DNA of 64,000 nt from Winogradskyella sp. (GTDB lineage Bacteria > Bacteroidota > Bacteroidia > Flavobacteriales > Flavobacteriaceae), in NCBI GenBank assembly GCA_004211785.1, contig SHBX01000011.1, positions 1 to 64,000 of the forward strand, in the 5' to 3' direction. The notes under the pieces were generated by a model that worked only from the letters and a program-made list of their open reading frames with translations, was not told where the DNA came from and searched no databases. Positions 16,594 through 25,756 of the stretch are shown here, in pieces (the first letter of the stretch is position 1; each line of letters begins with the position of its first letter). A program made the translations under genes and the position numbers.

Positions 16594-18132
16594 ATGCTCA
16601 AAAAAGTCTTTTCCAGTGCCGTTTTTGGTGTTGAAGCTTCAACCATAACCGTTGAGGTTAATGTAGATAAAGGTGTTGGTTATCACTTGGTAGGATTGCC
16701 AGATAACGCTATAAAGGAAAGTAACTACCGTATTGCAGCAGCACTTCAGAATAATGGCTTTAGAATTCCAGGTAAAAAGATTACAATTAATATGGCACCA
16801 GCTGATTTACGTAAAGAAGGTTCGGCTTATGACCTAACTTTGGCTATTGGTATTTTGACAGCATCTAATCAAATAAAAGCTGAGGATTTAGAAGATTATC
16901 TCATTATGGGAGAGTTATCCTTAGACGGAAGTCTACAGCCTATAAAAGGCGCCTTACCAATTGCTGTAAAAGCAAGAGAAGAAGGTTTTAAAGGCTTTAT
17001 TTTGCCAAGTCAAAATGCCAAGGAAGCTGCAATCGTTAATGATTTAAAGGTTTTTGGTGTTGACAATATTACTCAGGTTATAAATCACTTCGACAAAGGT
17101 GAAGTACTTGAGCAAACCATCATAGATACACGAGCAGAATTCACAAAAAACTTAAATTTCCCAGAGTTTGATTTTGCGGATGTCAAAGGGCAAGAGTCCA
17201 TAAAGCGCTGTATGGAAATTGCAGCAGCTGGTGGACATAATATTATTTTGATTGGCCCGCCAGGTTCTGGTAAAACCATGTTGGCTAAACGTTTGCCGAG
17301 TATTCTGCCGCCAATGACTCTGCATGAGGCTTTAGAAACCACTAAGATTCATTCTGTGGTTGGTAGAGTTAAAGCACATGCAGGATTAATGGCGCAACGC
17401 CCGTTTAGAAGTCCGCATCACACGATATCTAATGTTGCATTAGTCGGTGGCGGAAGTTACCCGCAACCTGGTGAAATATCATTATCTCATAATGGCGTTC
17501 TATTTTTAGATGAATTACCAGAATTTAAACGTGAGGTTCTAGAAGTGATGCGACAACCTCTCGAAGATAGAGAAGTAACCATTTCTAGAGCGAAATTTAC
17601 AGTAACCTATCCATCTTCTTTTATGTTGGTGGCAAGTATGAATCCAAGTCCGAGCGGTTATTTTAATGACCCAGATGCACCAGTGACTTCAAGTCCGGCG
17701 GAGATGCAACGCTATATGGGTAAGATTTCTGGGCCATTATTAGATAGAATAGATATTCATATTGAGGTGACGCCAGTACCTTTTGAGAAGCTTTCAGATG
17801 AACGAAAAGGTGAATCTTCTGTAGACATAAGAAAGCGTGTTACTAAAGCACGTGAGCTTCAAACGGAGCGTTTTTCAGAATTAGAAAATGTGCACTATAA
17901 TGCACAGATGAATACCAAGCAAATTCGTGAGTATTGTAAATTAGATGATGCATCTCTTCAGCTTTTAAAATCTGCCATGGAGCGTTTAAATTTGTCTGCA
18001 AGAGCTTATGATAGAATCTTAAAAGTGTCTCGTACGATTGCCGATTTAGAAGGTTCTAAAGTTGTAACTGGTACACATATTAGCGAAGCGATACAATATA
18101 GAAGCCTAGATAGAGATGGTTGGTTAGGGTAG
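16594..18132 (+). CDS. yifB: YifB-family Mg-chelatase-like AAA ATPase (ComM-like)
   Basis: 512 residues. Order: an N-terminal ChlI/Lon-protease-like domain (residues about 20-170), the AAA core with Walker A GPPGSGKT at 221-228 and Walker B LFLDELPEF at about 303-311, the RPFRSPHHT segment between them, and a C-terminal helical Mg-chelatase C domain (SARAYDRILKVSRTIADL). Homologues (ComM) are hexameric helicases promoting branch migration during natural transformation; others are annotated only as YifB. Length and motifs are complete. Convergent with the next gene, the two stops 1 bp apart. Confidence 0.92.
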   Translation: MLKKVFSSAVFGVEASTITVEVNVDKGVGYHLVGLPDNAIKESNYRIAAALQNNGFRIPGKKITINMAPADLRKEGSAYDLTLAIGILTASNQIKAEDLEDYLIMGELSLDGSLQPIKGALPIAVKAREEGFKGFILPSQNAKEAAIVNDLKVFGVDNITQVINHFDKGEVLEQTIIDTRAEFTKNLNFPEFDFADVKGQESIKRCMEIAAAGGHNIILIGPPGSGKTMLAKRLPSILPPMTLHEALETTKIHSVVGRVKAHAGLMAQRPFRSPHHTISNVALVGGGSYPQPGEISLSHNGVLFLDELPEFKREVLEVMRQPLEDREVTISRAKFTVTYPSSFMLVASMNPSPSGYFNDPDAPVTSSPAEMQRYMGKISGPLLDRIDIHIEVTPVPFEKLSDERKGESSVDIRKRVTKARELQTERFSELENVHYNAQMNTKQIREYCKLDDASLQLLKSAMERLNLSARAYDRILKVSRTIADLEGSKVVTGTHISEAIQYRSLDRDGWLG

Positions 18133-18133
18133 C

Positions 18134-20296
18134 TTATTCCTCATCCTTTAGCAAGTAATTATTATTCTGAATCAACTTGTTCCAAGTTTTAGTTACATTT
18201 TGATAACTGTAAACAGCTGAAGCTTTTTTACCTTCTTCTGTAATTTCAAACGCATATTGATTAGCATATCTTGATAATGAAATATAGCGATTTTCTGATA
18301 TAGGATATAGGTGTAATTTGGTGTTACCAGGACGTTCGTAATACAATTTATTATCTTCTATCCAAAATTGTCTTGCATTTCCATAACTACCAATAATATT
18401 TGAGTACTGTTCTAATATTTCTTCTTCGGATTTTGATTTCGTGTATTCTATATGTTGTAATGCTAATTTTAAGAAATAATGCTCTGGATATCTTTCTATG
18501 GCAATTTTGTATAATTTTTCAGCATTATTATAATCACCTTTACTAAGTGCGTCTTCGGCATTCTTAATTGTTTCATCGTAACGCCAGTAATAATAGGTGT
18601 TTCTTATTTTGTTATAGTTATATTCTGTATTCTTTGTAGCATAGAAGTTTCCTGTTTTACCTTTTAAGAACTTATTGATAACTATGTTTTGATAGATATA
18701 ACTTCCAAGCATTAATTTATTGTCACCAGCAAGAATTGGAGCACTCAACTCTTGATTAGAAACGTATGAAAGTAGCCTGTCATCATCTAACCAATATTCG
18801 TAAATTTGTTCTGTGTTTTGGGATCTATAGTTACCAACAAATTTTTGAAGTATCGATTTGGTGACTTCTGTTTTTGATAAATAATCAATTACGGTATCCA
18901 CTTGTACAGTGAAATTTTCCCATTTAGGATTTAGTAGTTTAGTGCGTTCTTGTGTTTCTTTAGCTGCTTTTATATCTCCCTTAAGTAATTGCGGTCTAAT
19001 TTTAAAAGAAGAAATTCCTTGGTTATTTGGTTGAACAATTTCTAGGTTTTTAATAGCATTAATAACTTCGTCATAATTACCAGCAACAATACTGGCATTT
19101 AATAAGTTTGACCCATTATCAATACTTCTGTTTTTGTCAAAACGTTCTTGACAATATTTTGCATAAGCTTCAACTTGTTTTGTCTCCCCATAAACAGCAT
19201 ACAAAAGCCTGTTGTAGATTTCATCACTTGGGTCTATTTCTAGCTGAAGTTTCAGTAATTTTTCTGCCATATCCCATTCTTCGTAGGCAATATGTCTTAA
19301 AATTCGTATCTGTAACTGACGCTGTAAAGGAAGCTTCCCGCTATACTTATAGGCTTGATTGATAAGTTTTTTTTCACCTTCTTCACCAAAGCTATAGCGT
19401 ATACTTCTTTGGGCATTCTCAAAATAAGATATTGCAAACCTTGAGTCTAATTGCTGGGCTTTGTAATAATTTCTGTTTATATGCTCTTTAATTGCCTCAA
19501 GAGAATTGCTATAAAATTCACTAAGATTCAAATCTATATACAAGTCCCTTTTTACTTCTGTTAGACCAATGTTATTTTTAATAAAAACACTTGCATCATC
19601 AAGAAGACTTAATAAATCATTTCCTTCAAAAGTTTGTTCGGAAAGTATTTTGCCATTTTTTGCATTTCTTACAGTAGGTGTTACTTTATATGTTTTTCCT
19701 ATAATTTCATAAGTTCCATCGACATAATAATCATTAAAAATTCTTGATTCGGTAACTTTATTGACTGTTCCACTGGAGTTCGATGTAAAAACTGAAAGTG
19801 TTTTATCTTGTAATAAATCTTGGTAAAGTAACTCTTGAATACCTTCGTTTAGCCAAGTGTTGGCTGTGTCTTTTACTATTGGTTCAAATTCATAAATAGG
19901 CAATCCAATTCTAAATTCCTCTTTAGTAATGAGTTGAGTTTCGAGGTTGCCAGCATCATTTGTGAAACTAATTTCTTTAGTAGTAGCACCTAAATCACTA
20001 CTACCAAATCCAAAATAGGTGATTACAGCCAGTAAAATAAGGTTGAGTGGAAAGATGATTTTTTCACGAAGTTTTAATATACCTTCATTAATACGGTCTT
20101 GGTGATAGAAGTAAATCAATAGAGAAGGTATAACACCTATAAATATCCAAAGTAATAGGTCTACCCAATTCGGTGATATATCATAACGATTTAATATCCA
20201 GTCTATAAATTGTAAAAATGTCCATGCAGCTACCAAATATGCTGCAAAGAATTTTAGAGTATTAAGCCATTTTTTTTTACGTTTTTCTTCTCCCAT
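18134..20296 (-). CDS. Membrane-anchored TPR protein with TolB/FlgO-like periplasmic domain
   Basis: 720 residues. Three apolar helices near residues 10-30, 42-62 and 80-97 resemble the membrane module seen in many bacterial signalling proteins (AAYLVAAWTFLQFIDWIL). It is followed by a domain around 115-245 (RIGLPIYEFEPI, then WLNEGIQELLYQDL, then VDGTYEI) that resembles the CsgG/FlgO/TolB-like domain often placed before TPRs in such proteins. The remainder is helical with TPR-like units (GDYNNAEKLYKIAIERYPEH near 595-615 is the clearest). Usual partners put an adenylate cyclase or DNA-binding domain N-terminal to the membrane module; here there is none, only a short Lys-rich leader. Function unknown. 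Confidence 0.65.
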   Translation of the reverse strand: MGEEKRKKKWLNTLKFFAAYLVAAWTFLQFIDWILNRYDISPNWVDLLLWIFIGVIPSLLIYFYHQDRINEGILKLREKIIFPLNLILLAVITYFGFGSSDLGATTKEISFTNDAGNLETQLITKEEFRIGLPIYEFEPIVKDTANTWLNEGIQELLYQDLLQDKTLSVFTSNSSGTVNKVTESRIFNDYYVDGTYEIIGKTYKVTPTVRNAKNGKILSEQTFEGNDLLSLLDDASVFIKNNIGLTEVKRDLYIDLNLSEFYSNSLEAIKEHINRNYYKAQQLDSRFAISYFENAQRSIRYSFGEEGEKKLINQAYKYSGKLPLQRQLQIRILRHIAYEEWDMAEKLLKLQLEIDPSDEIYNRLLYAVYGETKQVEAYAKYCQERFDKNRSIDNGSNLLNASIVAGNYDEVINAIKNLEIVQPNNQGISSFKIRPQLLKGDIKAAKETQERTKLLNPKWENFTVQVDTVIDYLSKTEVTKSILQKFVGNYRSQNTEQIYEYWLDDDRLLSYVSNQELSAPILAGDNKLMLGSYIYQNIVINKFLKGKTGNFYATKNTEYNYNKIRNTYYYWRYDETIKNAEDALSKGDYNNAEKLYKIAIERYPEHYFLKLALQHIEYTKSKSEEEILEQYSNIIGSYGNARQFWIEDNKLYYERPGNTKLHLYPISENRYISLSRYANQYAFEITEEGKKASAVYSYQNVTKTWNKLIQNNNYLLKDEE

Positions 20297-20364
20297 TTAC
20301 TGTGTATGCTCAATTTAATTTGAAAGATAAATAATATATATGAAACTCAATACTATGTAAATTG

Positions 20365-20372
20365 TATTTTTG
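20365..20372 (+). promoter_or_regulatory. -7 promoter element (TATTTTTG) of the DUF2891-nramp-pxpABC operon
   Basis: Full TAnnTTTG match ending 27 nt before the ATG at 20400. It covers the TTG at 20370 that would open the longest frame, so that TTG cannot be the translation start if this promoter is used. Confidence 0.6.
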
Positions 20373-20399
20373 AATACACCATTAAAATTTGTAATACTA

Positions 20400-21512
20400 A
20401 TGAAAAACATTTGCATTGTTTTTGTGCTTCTATTGTTATTGAGTTGTAACAATAAAGAATCAAATAAAGTAGAATCAGCTGATAAAGTAGAAATTGCCTT
20501 TGAAAAAACCCCTAATCTAAATATTGAAGAAGCAAACCGATTAGCCGAATTGCCTCTAGCTTGCGTGGGTACAGAGTACCCAAATCGTTTGGGACAAACC
20601 CTAGGAAGTAATGAAGATCTAAAATCACCGCAGATGTTACATCCAGCATTTTATGGTTGTTTTGATTGGCACTCTGCAGTTCATGGACATTGGAGTTTGG
20701 TGAGTCTGTTAAGACAATTTCCTAACCTAGAAAGAGCAAATGAAATTGAAGCTTGGCTACTCAATAGTATTTCTAAAGAAAATATAGAAATGGAAGTTGC
20801 ATATTTCGATGACAAAAATAATAAGTCTTTTGAGCGAACTTATGGTTGGGCTTGGTTATTAAAACTTGCTGAAGAATTAAATCAATGGGACAATGATGTG
20901 GCTAGACAAGTTGAGCAAAACCTGCAGCCTTTAACTGACTTAATAGTTGGTAAATACATTGAGTTTTTGCCAAAACTGAATTACCCAATCCGAGTAGGAG
21001 AGCACCCAAACACTGCATTTGGATTAAGTTTTGCCTATGATTATGCAGTAACTCTAAAAAATGAAGCGCTTAAATCGATGATTGAAAAACGTGCTCGAGA
21101 TTTTTATATGACTGATGCTAGCTGTCCATTACGTTGGGAGCCAAGTGGCTTTGATTTTTTATCACCTTGTTTAGAGGAAGCTGCTTTAATGAAGCGCGTT
21201 TTACCTAAAGAAGAATTCATAACTTGGTTTGGAGAGTTTTTACCACAATTAAAAGATGAAAACTTTAATCTTGAAGTTGGTCGTGTATCGGATAGAACAG
21301 ACGGAAAATTGGTGCACTTAGATGGTGTTAATTTCTCAAGGGCTTGGAGTTTAAACTATATCGTTAAAGATTTACCTGAATATTCTCACCTAAAGAATCT
21401 TGCCAATAAGCACGTCAATAATTCTTTACCAAGTATTATTGGCGATAGTTATGAAGGTGGTCATTGGTTAGGTAGTTTTGCAATTTATGCACTGAATTCA
21501 ATAGAAAGATAA
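20400..21512 (+). CDS. DUF2891 family lipoprotein
   Basis: 370 residues from the ATG at 20400; the upstream TTG at 20370 lies inside the promoter element. The N-terminus MKNICIVFVLLLLLSC is a lipoprotein signal peptide with the cysteine at residue 16. The mature protein matches DUF2891: HPAFYGCFDWHSAVHGHW, GWAWLLKLAEEL, RVGEHPNTAFGL, WEPSGFDFLSPCLEEA and GGHWLGSFAIYAL. These Trp/His/Glu-rich helices look like an (alpha/alpha)-barrel. No activity is established for the family. Its stop shares one base with the ATG of the following transporter, tying it to the oxoprolinase operon. Either a role in the same pathway or chance co-transcription is possible. Confidence 0.85.
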   Translation: MKNICIVFVLLLLLSCNNKESNKVESADKVEIAFEKTPNLNIEEANRLAELPLACVGTEYPNRLGQTLGSNEDLKSPQMLHPAFYGCFDWHSAVHGHWSLVSLLRQFPNLERANEIEAWLLNSISKENIEMEVAYFDDKNNKSFERTYGWAWLLKLAEELNQWDNDVARQVEQNLQPLTDLIVGKYIEFLPKLNYPIRVGEHPNTAFGLSFAYDYAVTLKNEALKSMIEKRARDFYMTDASCPLRWEPSGFDFLSPCLEEAALMKRVLPKEEFITWFGEFLPQLKDENFNLEVGRVSDRTDGKLVHLDGVNFSRAWSLNYIVKDLPEYSHLKNLANKHVNNSLPSIIGDSYEGGHWLGSFAIYALNSIER

Positions 21513-22735
21513 TGAAGAGATTCTTCAAAAATATTGGACCTGGACCTTTAGTTGCAGCAGCTTTCATTGGTCCAGGAACTGTAACGTTATGTACTATTGC
21601 TGGTGTTGATTTTGGTTATGCTTTACTATGGGCAATGTTATTATCGGTATTCGCAACTATAATTTTGCAAGAAATGTCAGCAAGATTAGGTGTTATTACT
21701 CAAAAAGGATTATCTGAGACTATTCGTGGAGAGATTAAAAGTCCAGCAATAAGAACTATAATCATAATTCTCATCTTGTCTGCTATTGTTATAGGCAATG
21801 CGGCTTATGAAGCTGGAAACATTTCTGGTGGTGCATTAGGTGTAAAGACGCTTTTTGGCACACCTGAGTTTCAAATTTTAAGCCGTAATATTGATATTTG
21901 GCCTATTATAATTGGTCTAGTGGCTTTTGTGGTATTGTATATTGGTAATTATAAAATCATTGAACGAGCTCTTGTTTTTATGGTAATACTTATGAGTTTG
22001 GCATTTTTAATTACAGCAATAATAACCAAGCCAAATGTCCTTGAAGTACTAAAAGGTATGTTTGTGCCACAGTTTCCGGAAAAGAGTATTCTAACTATTA
22101 TTGGTCTCATTGGTACGACAGTAGTACCATATAATATATTTCTTCATGCGTCTTTAGCTAAAACTAAGTGGAAGTCTAAGGATGATTTATCATACGCAAG
22201 AAAAGATACCGTAATAGCAGTTGTACTTGGTGGTATAGTATCTATGTGTATTATTATTTCTGCATCGGCTGTTTCATTTCAAGATATTAATAATGCGTCA
22301 GATTTAGCATTAGGATTACAACCGCTATTTGGAGATTTTGCCAAATATTTTTTAGCGATTGGTCTTTTCTCAGCAGGAATTACAAGTGCCATAACTGCAC
22401 CTTTGGCTGCTGCATATGTAGCTTCTGGGTGTTTGGGTTGGGGAAGTAGTTTAAAGTCGAAACGTTTTCGAGGTGTCTGGATTTTTATATTGTTTTTAGG
22501 TGTTTTATTTTCTTCAACGGGATTCAAGTCTATTGAAATTATTAAGTTCGCCCAAGTAGCCAATGGTCTATTATTGCCTGTAATTGCTGGTATTCTGATT
22601 TGGATAATGAATAAATCAAACATTCTTGGTAAGTATAAGAACTCTAGATTTCAAAATATTTTAGGGTATATCATCTTAGGTATTACCATTTTCTTAGGAG
22701 TGAAAACAATTTTAACCGTTTTTAATGTCATCTAA
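21512..22735 (+). CDS. NRAMP-family transporter lacking metal-binding motifs (YcsG-like), probably for 5-oxoproline
   Basis: 407 residues with about eleven membrane helices. The NRAMP fold is clear in GPGPLVAAAFIGPG and FGYALLWAMLLS. The two metal-site motifs are changed: DPGN of helix 1 reads GPGT (residues 20-23) and MPH of helix 6 reads VPYN (205-208), so the Asp, Asn, Met and His that contact the ion are lost. Transition-metal transport is therefore unlikely. The Bacillus subtilis relative YcsG is likewise encoded with ycsF-kipI-kipA, the pxpABC genes. From context I infer uptake of 5-oxoproline or a related compound. Overlaps the upstream gene by 1 bp and pxpA by 11 bp. Confidence 0.82.
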   Translation: MKRFFKNIGPGPLVAAAFIGPGTVTLCTIAGVDFGYALLWAMLLSVFATIILQEMSARLGVITQKGLSETIRGEIKSPAIRTIIIILILSAIVIGNAAYEAGNISGGALGVKTLFGTPEFQILSRNIDIWPIIIGLVAFVVLYIGNYKIIERALVFMVILMSLAFLITAIITKPNVLEVLKGMFVPQFPEKSILTIIGLIGTTVVPYNIFLHASLAKTKWKSKDDLSYARKDTVIAVVLGGIVSMCIIISASAVSFQDINNASDLALGLQPLFGDFAKYFLAIGLFSAGITSAITAPLAAAYVASGCLGWGSSLKSKRFRGVWIFILFLGVLFSSTGFKSIEIIKFAQVANGLLLPVIAGILIWIMNKSNILGKYKNSRFQNILGYIILGITIFLGVKTILTVFNVI

Positions 22736-23468
22736 ACTCGAAATAGATATAAACGCCGATGTAGGAGAAGGCATAGGTAATGAAGCAAACATGATGCCTT
22801 ATTTATCCTCATGCAATATCGCTTGTGGCGGACATGCAGGCAATTTTGAGACAATGAAATCTGTAGTAAAATTAGCCAAAGCGCATCAAGTAAAAATTGG
22901 AGCACATCCATCTTTTCCTGATAAAGAAAATTTTGGACGTATAAATATGAAGCTGTCGTTGGAAGAATTATTTGATAGTCTGAAATCTCAAGTTGAAGAT
23001 TTAACGACAGTCTTAAAATCAGAAAATGTAGAAATACATCATATAAAACCTCATGGTGCTTTGTATAATTTGGCAACAAAAGATTCTGAAACAGCTAAAG
23101 TAATTTTGAAAGTTATAAAATCCTTTTCATCATCAGTGAAATTATATGCACCTTACAAATCTGTAATTGCAGAACTTGCAAAACATGAAAATATTGAAGT
23201 TGTCTTTGAAGGTTTTGCTGACCGAAATTACAACCAAGATTTGTCTCTCGTTTCACGTCAAAATAAAGACGCTTTAATCACTGAAAAAGAAGCTGTTTTG
23301 AAACATGTTTTCAAGATGATTTCTGAACAAAAAATCAATACTATAACTGGAGTAGAAGTAGAGTTGTTTGCAGATACAATTTGCGTGCATGGCGATACGG
23401 AAAACGCTCAAAATATTTTAGAATATTTGTATCATAACTTAGAACTTAATAATGTTAGAATACTATAA
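22725..23468 (+). CDS. pxpA: 5-oxoprolinase (ATP-hydrolysing) subunit A, LamB/YcsF family
   Basis: 247 residues, the usual length. Family signatures are DINADVGEG at residues 6-14, SCNIACGGHAGN near 28-39, VKIGAHPSFPD near 56-66, and HIKPHGALYN near 105-114. PxpA works with PxpB and PxpC to open 5-oxo-L-proline to glutamate with ATP, disposing of a spontaneous product of glutamine. Start ATG at 22725 lies within the end of the transporter gene, indicating translational coupling. Confidence 0.95.
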   Translation: MSSKLEIDINADVGEGIGNEANMMPYLSSCNIACGGHAGNFETMKSVVKLAKAHQVKIGAHPSFPDKENFGRINMKLSLEELFDSLKSQVEDLTTVLKSENVEIHHIKPHGALYNLATKDSETAKVILKVIKSFSSSVKLYAPYKSVIAELAKHENIEVVFEGFADRNYNQDLSLVSRQNKDALITEKEAVLKHVFKMISEQKINTITGVEVELFADTICVHGDTENAQNILEYLYHNLELNNVRIL

Positions 23469-23474
23469 TTAATT

Positions 23475-24200
23475 TTGAAATATAATCTTAAATATAGGCA
23501 ATTCAATGAACGTTCTATTTTAATAGAATGGCCATCAATTATTGATGAAAACATGCTTCAAGATATCCAGAATTTCAAAAATGTTTTATTTAATAATTAC
23601 ATTAAACTAAAAGTTGATATAATCAGCACATATAATTCAATATTAATTAATTACATGTCTACTATTGAAGATATCTATGATGAAATTATACATTTAAAAA
23701 CTATATATTCAGGCATAGAATCACGAAGTTCTATAAAATTCAAACTTTGGGAAGTTCCTGTTTGCTACGATGATGAATTTGGAATAGATTTAGAAATTCT
23801 ATCGATTACTAAATCACTATCAAAGCCTGAAATTATTCAACGACATTCTCAACAAATATATACAGTTTTTTTTATTGGTTTTTTACCTGGTTTTTTATAC
23901 TTGGGAGGTTTGCATGAATCGCTGTATTTAGATAGGAAAAAATCACCTAATTTGGATATCAAAAAAGGAGCTGTCGGTATAGGTGGAAACCAGACTGGGA
24001 TTTACCCCCAAAATAGTCCTGGCGGATGGCATATTATAGGCAATTCTCCTATCAATTTTTTCGACCTTAAAAATGAAAAGCCATGCTTTGCAAAAGCAGG
24101 AGATAAAATTAAGTTTCAACCAATTTCTAAAGATGAACATTTTTTAATTTTAAAGGACATAGAATCAAATTCGTATAAACCTAAGTGTATTTCGATATGA
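23475..24200 (+). CDS. pxpB: 5-oxoprolinase subunit B (KipI family)
   Basis: 241 residues. The C-terminal domain has the family signature: FLPGFLYLGGL near 135-145, then GAVGIGGNQTGIYPQNSPGGWHIIG, a cyclophilin-like fold that pairs with PxpC. The start is a TTG 6 bp after the pxpA stop. The first half is more diverged than the second. KipI was first described as an inhibitor of a sporulation kinase; in this non-spore-former the metabolic role is the reasonable reading. Confidence 0.92.
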   Translation: MKYNLKYRQFNERSILIEWPSIIDENMLQDIQNFKNVLFNNYIKLKVDIISTYNSILINYMSTIEDIYDEIIHLKTIYSGIESRSSIKFKLWEVPVCYDDEFGIDLEILSITKSLSKPEIIQRHSQQIYTVFFIGFLPGFLYLGGLHESLYLDRKKSPNLDIKKGAVGIGGNQTGIYPQNSPGGWHIIGNSPINFFDLKNEKPCFAKAGDKIKFQPISKDEHFLILKDIESNSYKPKCISI

Positions 24201-25051
24201 AGGTTAAGGTTATAAAATCTGGTTTGCTTTCCACTATTCAAGATTTGGGACGTTTCGGATATCGAGATTTAGGTGTTCCCGTTTGTGGTGCAATGGATAC
24301 GAATTCGGCTCAATTATCTAATAGGTTACTAAATAATAATAAGGATGATGCAGTTTTGGAAATGACGATGATTGGTCCAAAGCTTCAATTTGATATGCAC
24401 TCCCAAATTGCTATTACTGGAGCTGACATGTCTCCAATGTTAAATGGAGAAGCTATTAAGAACAATAAAGTATATAATATTAAGCAAGAAGATATCCTAG
24501 AATTTGGTAGTATAAAGTCAGGTTTAAGAGCTTATTTGGCTATAAAAGGAGGTTTTATAACAGATTCAATTTTAGGCAGCAGAAGCTATTATATGCCAAT
24601 GACTAGTGCTAATACTATTAAAGGAGATGATTTTCTACCTGCAATTAGCTTTAATAATGACTTGGAGAGAACAATATCTTTTTCAAAATTAAAAACTATT
24701 GATTTTTTTTCAAAAACTCTAAATGTTTTCAAAGGTCCAGAGTTTGATTCCCTTAACCAATATCAAAAAGAAAAAATAATTTCCTCGGAATTTGAAGTGT
24801 CTAACCTTTATAGCCGTATGGCGTATCAGCTTTCACCTTTAATAGAAAATGATTTGCAGTCTATATTAACGGGGCCAGTTTTGCCGGGAACTGTTCAATT
24901 GACACCATCTGGAAGATTGATTGTCTTAATGCGCGATTGCCAAACTACTGGAGGCTATCCAAGAGTATTGCAGCTTGCAGAGGACGCGATTAATTTATTG
25001 AGCCAGAAGAAGGAAAGAGATAAAGTTAATTTTAGAATAGCTGAGCTATAA
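24197..25051 (+). CDS. pxpC: 5-oxoprolinase subunit C (KipA/biotin-dependent carboxyltransferase-like family)
   Basis: 284 residues from the ATG at 24197, which overlaps the pxpB stop as ATGA; a GTG four codons earlier is also possible. Signatures: GLLSTIQDLGRFGYRDLGVP, GAMDTNSAQLSNRLL, ITGADMSP and the C-terminal LTPSGRLIVLMRDCQTTGGYPR. Together with PxpB it forms the ATP-using part of bacterial 5-oxoprolinase. Last gene of the operon; its stop overlaps the tail of the convergent pseudouridine synthase gene by 6 bp, with no room for a separate terminator. Confidence 0.93.
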   Translation: MKVKVIKSGLLSTIQDLGRFGYRDLGVPVCGAMDTNSAQLSNRLLNNNKDDAVLEMTMIGPKLQFDMHSQIAITGADMSPMLNGEAIKNNKVYNIKQEDILEFGSIKSGLRAYLAIKGGFITDSILGSRSYYMPMTSANTIKGDDFLPAISFNNDLERTISFSKLKTIDFFSKTLNVFKGPEFDSLNQYQKEKIISSEFEVSNLYSRMAYQLSPLIENDLQSILTGPVLPGTVQLTPSGRLIVLMRDCQTTGGYPRVLQLAEDAINLLSQKKERDKVNFRIAEL

Positions 25052-25756
25052 CTTAGCACAAGCATCCCATAGCGAATCTTTTGGAAGAGGCGCTTCAATA
25101 AAAACTGGTTCTTTTTTTACTGGGTGTACAAACTCTAAAGTTCGCGCATGGAGGCTTATACTCCCATCTTTATTACTGCGGTCGAATCCATATTTTAAAT
25201 CACCTTTAATCGGACAGCCAATGTTAGATAGTTGCGTCCTTATTTGATGATGTCTTCCAGTCTCTAAATCTATTTCAAGTAAATAAAAATTGTCTAGCTC
25301 TTTGATTATTTTATAACTAAGAATTGCTTTTTTGCTATTATCTATCTCTTTTTTATATGCTGTAGACTTATTGTTTTTAGGATTCTTGCGTAGCCAATTA
25401 ACTAAAGTATCTTCATTTTTTGGAGGCCGATTTTTAATTAACGCCCAATAGGTTTTCTTAGCTTTCTTTTCTGCAAATAACTTATTTAATCGAGGTAAAG
25501 CTTTACTGGTTTTTGCAAACATAACAACACCAGTTGTTGGTCTGTCTAAGCGATGTACAACACCTAGGTATACATTACCTGGCTTGTTGTGTTTTTCTGC
25601 AATATATTCCTTTACAACGTTGCTTAGTGGCTTGTCTCCAGTTCTATCACCTTGCACAATATCTCCAGCACGTTTGTTGACAACTATAATATGGTTGTCT
25701 TCGTAAATAACTTGAAGGTTATTTTTGGTAGATATTATTTTTTTGAAATTAGACAT
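25046..25756 (-). CDS. RluA-family RNA pseudouridine synthase
   Basis: 236 residues without an N-terminal S4 domain. The catalytic motif VHRLDRPTTGVVMFAK (near residues 68-83) contains the nucleophilic Asp, and GRHHQIRTQLSNIGCPIKGD near 168-187 is the second RluA signature. It isomerises uridines in rRNA or tRNA; the short form without S4 resembles RluA/TruC-like enzymes, but the target site cannot be assigned. Its ATG shares one base with the stop of the upstream cupin gene, so it is the last gene of the panB operon. Confidence 0.9.
   Translation of the reverse strand: MSNFKKIISTKNNLQVIYEDNHIIVVNKRAGDIVQGDRTGDKPLSNVVKEYIAEKHNKPGNVYLGVVHRLDRPTTGVVMFAKTSKALPRLNKLFAEKKAKKTYWALIKNRPPKNEDTLVNWLRKNPKNNKSTAYKKEIDNSKKAILSYKIIKELDNFYLLEIDLETGRHHQIRTQLSNIGCPIKGDLKYGFDRSNKDGSISLHARTLEFVHPVKKEPVFIEAPLPKDSLWDACAKL

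Follow-up and report, generated by a model that had tools for sequence, protein, structure and literature searches.

The stretch of DNA considered here (the window) comprises the first 64,000 nucleotides (nt) of contig SHBX01000011.1 from Winogradskyella sp. (assembly GCA_004211785.1; family Flavobacteriaceae). At positions 20400-25051 it carries five open reading frames (ORFs) on the plus strand, encoding in order a DUF2891 lipoprotein, a permease of the NRAMP fold, and the 5-oxoprolinase subunits PxpA, PxpB, and PxpC; their Pfam matches are DUF2891, Nramp, LamB_YcsF, CT_C_D, and CT_A_B. A first-pass annotation, made from the sequence alone, had described the transporter gene as overlapping pxpA and all five genes as coupled, and this is borne out by the junctions. 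The DUF2891 stop overlaps the NRAMP ATG by 1 nt, NRAMP and pxpA overlap by 11 nt, pxpA and pxpB (which begins at a TTG) are 6 nt apart, and pxpB and pxpC overlap by 4 nt. Terminator-like matches in 20200-25300 number two, against 2.6 in shuffled sequences, which is the level of chance. The features of the locus, with the motifs in transmembrane helices (TM) of the permease, are as follows.

20400..21512, plus strand: DUF2891 gene, 370 amino acids (aa), lipoprotein signal with Cys16; PF11199 at 458.8 bits; (alpha/alpha)6-barrel-like; related to Cj0554 of Campylobacter jejuni.
21512..22735, plus strand: NRAMP-fold permease of clade I (defined below), 407 aa; PF01566 at 317.3 bits; AlphaFold2 (AF2) model and trees.
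21569..21580, plus strand: TM1 GPGT (residues 20-23), where metal carriers have DPGN; from alignments.
21794..21841, plus strand: TM3 block G95..Y99..G102 N103..G106..G110, with N103 opposite E134 of DraNramp.
22112..22135, plus strand: TM6 GTTVVPYN (residues 201-208), with Y207 opposite H232 and V205 opposite M230 of DraNramp.
22725..23468, plus strand: pxpA, 5-oxoprolinase subunit A (LamB/YcsF); NF003814 and NF003816 over cut-off.
23475..24200, plus strand: pxpB, 5-oxoprolinase subunit B; TIGR00370 at 149.6 bits against a cut-off of 145.55; TTG start.
24197..25051, plus strand: pxpC, 5-oxoprolinase subunit C; PF02626 at 226.5 bits.

The PxpA subfamily models NF003814 (255.5 against a cut-off of 226) and NF003816 (230 against 213) are passed, while all three PxpA equivalog models score under cut-off (261/337, 240.5/392, and 206/378). 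PxpC similarly misses the curated models NF045499 (169/500) and TIGR00724 (205/230.2) and passes Pfam CT_A_B (226.5/25).

The AF2 model of the permease, with a predicted local distance difference test (pLDDT) score of 83.6, matches DraNramp (6c3i_B) at Z 48.2 and a root mean square deviation of 2.2 over 374 aligned residues, and EleNRMT at Z 46.0; it thus has the Nramp/LeuT fold as a predicted structure. The fold is held in common with canonical Nramp/MntH proteins (DraNramp, BfraNramp) and the Mg2+ transporter EleNRMT, whereas the motifs differ. None of the canonical Slc11/Nramp signatures (DPGN in TM1, MPH in TM6, Glu134 in TM3) is present in the window permease, nor are those of NRMT (DAGG in TM1, APW in TM6), their places being taken by GPGT and VPY. 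A profile alignment to solved Nramps and a 131-row alignment agree in placing G20, T23, and V205 opposite D56, N59, and M230 of DraNramp, and Y207 and N103 opposite H232 and E134. E116 of BfraNramp, the counterpart of E134, has been reported to contact Mn (PMC12873925). The replacement of DPGN and MPH by GPGT and VPYN noticed in the first-pass annotation is therefore confirmed, GPGT and GTTVVPYN aligning with DPGN and GATVMPH of DraNramp.

The 131 rows are three PDB chains and 128 distinct proteins, the latter kept from 145 hits after those shorter than 380 aa or identical had been dropped. Glycine, asparagine, and tyrosine (G/N/Y) occupy the D56, E134, and H232 positions in 105 of them, and within these rows N59 is replaced by T in 104 and S in one, M230 by V in all 105, and P231 is retained in 95 (G in nine, L in one). 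Since these rows were chosen by the G/N/Y triad, counts at those three sites are circular, and the tree provides the independent check. In the clade defined by the tree, G, N, and Y stand at these positions in 39/39 rows, D56 and H232 are never D or H, and the metal ligands D56, N59, and M230 are replaced by G, by T or S, and by V, respectively, in every row. The TM3 residues G95, Y99, G102, N103, G106, and G110 are all invariant in a 30-row alignment.

That clade (clade I) forms one group of 39 rows in an unrooted tree, with support of 99/97, the next branch being metal Nramps plus EleNRMT (97/90). A second tree that included rows of the type of Bacillus subtilis YcsG (clade II) held clade I at 99/98 (38 rows), with a weaker link to the metal Nramps and NRMT (94/81), those two grouping together at 91/75. 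The first tree carries a long-branch warning, and two long branches (loci L002 and L177) were left out of the second. When unconstrained, the tree separates clades I and II; a tree uniting them is 6 log units worse, with p 0.311 in the approximately unbiased (AU) test, so their union is not rejected and an independent origin of the two is not claimed. This phylogeny of NRAMPs beside pxp genes had been proposed as a check in the first-pass annotation, and in its unconstrained form it sets the window clade apart from the YcsG-type rows.

Close homology of the window permease to YcsG was assumed at first and has been dropped. Aligned by structure with the B. subtilis YcsG model (9a52_A), it shows 23% identity over 381 residues, which makes YcsG no nearer to it than the metal Nramps are, and direct comparison with two YcsG-type proteins gives 22% (L205) and 24% (L216); haloarchaeal members of clade I, by comparison, are 44-49% identical to it, and the YcsG-type L205 is 44-51% identical to L214, L215, and L216. 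These four loci were assigned to the YcsG type from gene content and distances. YcsG-type NRAMPs have GPGF in TM1, GN in TM3, and GGTVGGY in TM6, as opposed to GPGT and GTTV(V/I)(P/G)YN in clade I, and F at the place of the helix-3 Tyr of clade I; both clades share the G/N/Y triad at the D56, E134, and H232 positions. On these sequence comparisons, the window permease is a member of a separate, tightly conserved clade that is not close to the PxpT/YcsG/MumT type. Plasmid loci in Lactiplantibacillus, Rhizobium, and Acinetobacter carry pxpA, NRAMP, a hydro-lyase gene, pxpB/C, and a biotin carboxylase gene, and a Deinococcus plasmid locus carries pxpA, pxpB, and NRAMP. We take ycsI to be a hydro-lyase homolog. 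Two further Flavobacteriaceae NRAMP groups lack the metal motif, the GPGS...FQN and GTGS types (L185, L187-L191, L193, L195-L197), and none of those that were read lies near pxpA; the GPGS-type group has G and N, without Y, at the D56/E134/H232 positions.

The window clade matches the description of an "orphan" outgroup of Slc11, which is characterized by a helix-3 Tyr, an Asn and four invariant Gly (mutant GYGNGG), A228T, and a helix-6 V/Y pair (Cellier, PMC10606218). Compared with the text of that paper only, the corresponding features of the window permease are G95, Y99, G102, N103, G106, and G110, together with T202, V205, and Y207. The portion of the paper available gives no substrate or gene context for the outgroup, and a literature search found no title or abstract joining it to 5-oxoproline.

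Gene neighborhoods were compared in 149 genomes of the family of the window, Flavobacteriaceae, with linkage defined as lying within 3 kb of pxpA. NRAMP places were taken from listed matches, the last 10 of the 150 listed (E of 6e-20 or weaker) being dropped, none of them near pxpA by inspection. Class (metal-type, clade I, or other) was read from sequence for the places fetched, the others being known by position and score, and three DUF2891 fragments under the cut-off (G085, G008, G070) were also dropped. pxpA occurs at 106 places in 105 genomes, and among the matches listed an NRAMP gene lies within 3 kb of 91 of these, on the same strand in 91/91; the gap between the two hidden Markov model matches is at most 200 nt in 86 of the 91 pairs. 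The pairing in the window is therefore not a chance arrangement. None of the seven metal-type (DPGN/MPH) NRAMPs that were read (L033-L039) is within 3 kb of pxpA. Sequence confirms two clade I genes that are not linked to pxpA (G018, G115), and a partial NRAMP stands at a contig edge beside DUF2891 (G079). DUF2891 exceeds its cut-off at 67 places; at 48 of them pxpA lies no more than 8 kb away, and at 45 NRAMP does (among the matches listed), always on the same strand, and pxpA is present in 55 of the 66 genomes with a DUF2891 match longer than 600 nt, compared with 105/149 overall. DUF979 was considered as the transporter where NRAMP is missing and HyuB as the oxoprolinase of DUF2891 genomes lacking pxpA. 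Both candidates were rejected: DUF979 has no match in the 149 genomes, and HyuB occurs in four, two of which carry DUF2891 (G026, G050) and also pxpA.

Outside the family, a clade I protein was found at E of 1e-60 or better in 5/249 Pseudomonadota genomes. One of these loci (L202) has the full order DUF2891-NRAMP-pxpA-pxpB-pxpC, with proteins 32-47% identical to the queries, and in another (G268, L201) a fused HyuA-HyuB of 1216 aa runs at its end into the NRAMP ORF. In haloarchaea, where nine of the 23 listed records were opened, HyuA follows NRAMP directly in eight of the nine loci and HyuB was seen in seven; the Halobellus locus is cut by the record end and Natrononativus has none. A gene of the Asp/Glu-racemase family is present in 4/9 loci, and glutamate dehydrogenase genes are close by in Haloarcula hispanica. 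The nearest solved structures of the HyuA partners are N-methylhydantoinase and 5-oxoprolinase, and the best NCBIfam model for HyuAB is caprolactamase, far under cut-off. OPLAH/HyuAB-type 5-oxoprolinases differ from PxpABC in their Pfam families, so that clade I is coupled to two kinds of oxoprolinase-type enzyme, PxpABC and the non-homologous HyuAB family, in bacteria and archaea. No relatives of the window permease or the DUF2891 protein were found on viral contigs.

The DUF2891 protein, whose nearest named relative is from Winogradskyella luteola (Flavobacteriaceae; 75% identity), matches by its model CJ0554 of C. jejuni (8iev/8ieu) at Z 40.7 and 39% identity. The next fold matches, cellobiose 2-epimerase (Z 16.4) and unsaturated glucuronyl hydrolase (Z 16.0), are barely above the common level for helical models, and assignment of an activity from them was rejected. 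In a 45-row alignment Cys16 is found in at least 90% of rows, and a lipobox, by a loose pattern, is present at 67 of 80 named loci. In the same alignment some Asp, His, Arg, and Glu residues are invariant, which, together with the barrel-like fold of the model, suggests that DUF2891 is an enzyme. A literature search on Cj0554 and the structures 8ieu/8iev found no function for the family in print: the entry codes brought up unrelated papers, and Cj0554 two papers whose titles concern fluoroquinolone resistance and biofilms.

All five genes are present at 39 of the 80 named DUF2891 loci; seven have DUF2891 with NRAMP, four DUF2891 with pxpABC, two are partial, and the remaining 28 have neither pxp nor NRAMP nearby, indicating that DUF2891 does not depend on adjoining PxpABC. 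Where it precedes pxpABC without NRAMP (L068-L071, L104, L136, L153, L167, the last with one intervening gene), no replacing transporter was recognized. Of the 35 loci lacking pxpA nearby, 33 (all but L109 and L112, at contig ends) were checked genome-wide: pxpA lies elsewhere in 16 of these genomes, including three Psychroflexus and a Mariniradius with DUF2891 and NRAMP, and no match was found in the other 17, some of which are incomplete metagenome-assembled genomes. The solitary copies and the genomes without a pxpA match suggest that DUF2891 has some role apart from PxpABC. In Psychroflexus (L164, L166, L169) DUF2891-NRAMP stands apart from pxpA, and in L164 the pair is followed directly by a gamma-glutamyltransferase gene (TIGR00066, over cut-off; L164:12429-14159). 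Peptidase genes adjoin DUF2891 at several loci (M16, L063:8938-11805; M28, L066:5044-7443; S41, L075:7352-10582; S58, L084:6973-7995; S41, L107:11232-14450), the two S41 genes lying between DUF2891 and NRAMP.

DUF2891 has a second context. The C. jejuni operon cj0552-0554 (DUF969-DUF979-DUF2891) is reported to respond to glutamine, and bacteria that had lost it no longer used 5-oxoproline in a preliminary growth experiment; in the portion of that report available, the authors credit DUF969/979 for this use, and DUF2891 alone is not tested there (PMC12795558). The operon thus resembles that of the window in carrying DUF2891 and differs in its candidate transporter, which is DUF969/DUF979 rather than NRAMP. 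The same trio is found on Klebsiella (L083) and Burkholderia (L086) plasmids, two of the five plasmid DUF2891 loci opened, and the Klebsiella DUF2891 protein starts directly with the domain and has no signal peptide. DUF2891 therefore accompanies two unrelated candidate 5-oxoproline transporters. The Klebsiella trio, at L083:6280-8990, is on an IncF conjugative plasmid; Klebsiella accounts for 35 of the 55 plasmid records with DUF2891, one of the Klebsiella records having been opened.

Uptake of 5-oxoproline on the NRAMP fold, as had been suggested for the locus from the outset, is the best reading of these results, and the cargo of the window permease is likely to be 5-oxoproline or a near lactam. 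The operon would constitute a salvage route for 5-oxoproline (pyroglutamate). In the proposed mechanism, the permease would move 5-oxoproline, or a five-membered lactam acid closely resembling it, through the inner membrane by a LeuT-type alternating-access cycle, with an organic substrate held where the metal site would be, and PxpABC would then open the ring, at the expense of ATP, to yield glutamate. The DUF2891 lipoprotein, exported in Bacteroidota, may free or form 5-oxoproline or a precursor for the permease. The analysis itself shows the gene content, the coupling, the predicted fold, the clade, the residue pattern, and the conservation of the neighborhoods, and the chemistry of PxpABC is known from the literature. 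We infer the cargo of clade I, the direction of transport, the coupling ion, and the action of DUF2891, which is probably an enzyme feeding the 5-oxoproline route. Counted in favor of a 5-oxoproline cargo are the linkage to pxpA among the matches listed, the recurrence of the five-gene order in the distant pseudomonadotal L202, the position of clade I genes beside HyuA or HyuAB, and the occurrence of DUF2891 in DUF969-DUF979 sets with the cj0552-0554 phenotype. The Psychroflexus DUF2891-NRAMP pairs away from pxpA, the loss of metal ligands throughout the clade, and the requirement for clade II homologs for growth on 5-oxoproline were counted likewise.

That requirement comes from studies of related systems. 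In Corynebacterium glutamicum, the NRAMP homolog PxpT is reported to be needed for growth on 5-oxoproline, and the same source relates that YcsG is needed for 5-oxoproline use in B. subtilis (PMC13274462, 2026). PxpT and YcsG (MntG) resemble the window permease in combining the NRAMP fold with an operon containing pxpA, and differ from it in their low identity, proteins from YcsG-type gene sets carrying GPGF/GGTVGGY. PxpT, at a published 50% identity to YcsG (PMC13274462), can be expected to belong to the YcsG type. A polar effect has been named as a possible cause of the 5-oxoproline phenotype described earlier for ycsG (PMC10448178); plasmid-borne pxpT complemented its C. glutamicum mutant (PMC13274462), which answers the objection for PxpT. 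The comparison with the Bacillus ycsG-ycsF-kipI-kipA pairing drawn in the first-pass annotation holds as far as fold and operon go and does not carry the inference, given the 23% identity. The uptake route itself stands as the best reading, strengthened by clade conservation, HyuA pairing, and DUF2891, while the idea was already in print for PxpT.

Several observations weigh against this reading. We know of no transport assay for clade I. Among the matches listed, 15/106 pxpA places have no NRAMP within 3 kb and four DUF2891-pxpA pairs lack NRAMP; three of the five pseudomonadotal clade I members, and Pseudoalteromonas (L174), have no recognized partner within 1.5 kb. To these are added the 28 solitary DUF2891 loci and the 17 genomes without a pxpA match. 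The HyuAB partners could, judging from their sequences, be hydantoinases or other lactamases. The window permease passes NF037982, "Nramp family divalent metal transporter" (101.2 against a cut-off of 50), a model also passed by the GPGS- and GTGS-type proteins, and misses the narrower metal-transporter models NF001923 (167.2/430) and TIGR01197 (114.3/272.5). Furthermore, genetic data and measurements of cell Mn have led YcsG and MumT of Acinetobacter baumannii to be described as Mn importers (PMC5050338, PMC10448178), and the absence of a metal-type NRAMP from the window genome leaves room for an Mn role.

An alternative is that the permease carries another small lactam or imide (hydantoin, 5-oxo-D-proline, or a pyroglutamyl dipeptide) or glutamine, and that 5-oxoproline arises only inside the cell. 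The hydantoinase-family subunits and the Asp/Glu-racemase-family protein of the haloarchaeal loci are in keeping with such a cargo, as are the M16, M28, S41, and S58 peptidases near DUF2891 and the gamma-glutamyltransferase after NRAMP in L164. However, pxpA is the usual partner in the family of the window (91/106, among the matches listed), and PxpABC has been described as a 5-oxoprolinase (PMC13274462), so we regard this alternative as unlikely.

Import of Mn2+ or another divalent ion by the permease, to supply the adjoining enzymes, is also improbable; such a role has been suggested for MumT (with urea carboxylase) and YcsG/MntG. Deletion of MumT is reported to lower cell Mn and raise Mn resistance (PMC5050338), and YcsG overproduction raises cell Mn, with ycsG under MntR (PMC10448178). 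The name of NF037982 points the same way, as does the window genome (89.7% complete), in which no DPGN/MPH NRAMP was found, its two NRAMP hits being the window permease and a GVSH protein. Against this, the ligands D56, N59, M230, and H232 are replaced in 39/39 rows of the clade and E134 is Asn in all, a ZIP homolog is present in the window genome, and none of the seven metal-type NRAMPs read lies by pxpA. The published Mn data, moreover, concern another clade, to which YcsG and MumT appear to belong. The mumTLUHC operon shares with the window an NRAMP homolog beside a pxpA-like gene; the A. baumannii locus L216, whose gene order fits mumTLUHC, has, unlike the window, a hydro-lyase, a fused pxpBC, and biotin carboxylase. 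Clade II also lacks D56, N59, and M230, so judging by its sequences either a new metal site exists there or the Mn effects are indirect. The initial statement that ions are an unlikely cargo is supported by the loss of ligands throughout the clade; missing DPGN and MPH motifs alone are not decisive, given the effects on cell Mn reported for MumT and YcsG.

Export of 5-oxoproline or glutamate to relieve build-up, which the unreadability of direction from sequence and the ability of PxpABC to act on 5-oxoproline made in the cell would permit, is very improbable given that C. glutamicum depends on an NRAMP homolog to grow on externally supplied 5-oxoproline (PMC13274462) and that the export signal on DUF2891 fits supply from outside.

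5-oxoproline uptake by an NRAMP homolog is thus already in print, for another clade (PxpT in 2026, and YcsG). What is new is that the window permease stands in a second, well separated clade with a context of its own, namely two oxoprolinase-type enzymes, bacteria and archaea, and DUF2891. Published lines conflict, NRAMP homologs beside oxoprolinase genes being said to import both 5-oxoproline and manganese, and the clade split and residue pattern make this conflict directly testable with one gene per clade and two cargoes. If clade I carries 5-oxoproline, the group next to the SLC11 metal carriers (including human DMT1 and NRAMP1) gains a substrate, and the step from organic to metal cargo becomes open to residue-by-residue study. 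DUF2891, a family with solved structures, is tied to the 5-oxoproline pathway. A broader view, which we consider doubtful though worth stating, is that the NRAMP fold carried lactam acids such as 5-oxoproline before it carried metals, that metal import arose through exchange of site residues to D/E/H, and that Mn import by YcsG and MumT is indirect. If so, metal Nramps and NRMTs would have as their sister group a 5-oxoproline carrier that occurs in both bacteria and archaea and pairs with oxoprolinases of two unrelated kinds, and the same G/N/Y pattern would be retained by another NRAMP clade that split off deeply (YcsG/PxpT/MumT).

The other NRAMP-family match of the window genome (L002:1420-2670, equivalent to G000:C9:48329-49390) is very divergent, with GVSH for DPGN, and is flanked by ORFs that, judged by eye, are sigma-factor-like and lipoyl-synthase-like. 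Upstream of DUF2891 in the window, at 16594-18132, is a ComM/YifB-like Mg-chelatase gene whose cluster is present in 10 of the 21 DUF2891 neighborhoods compared, likely reflecting conserved gene order only.

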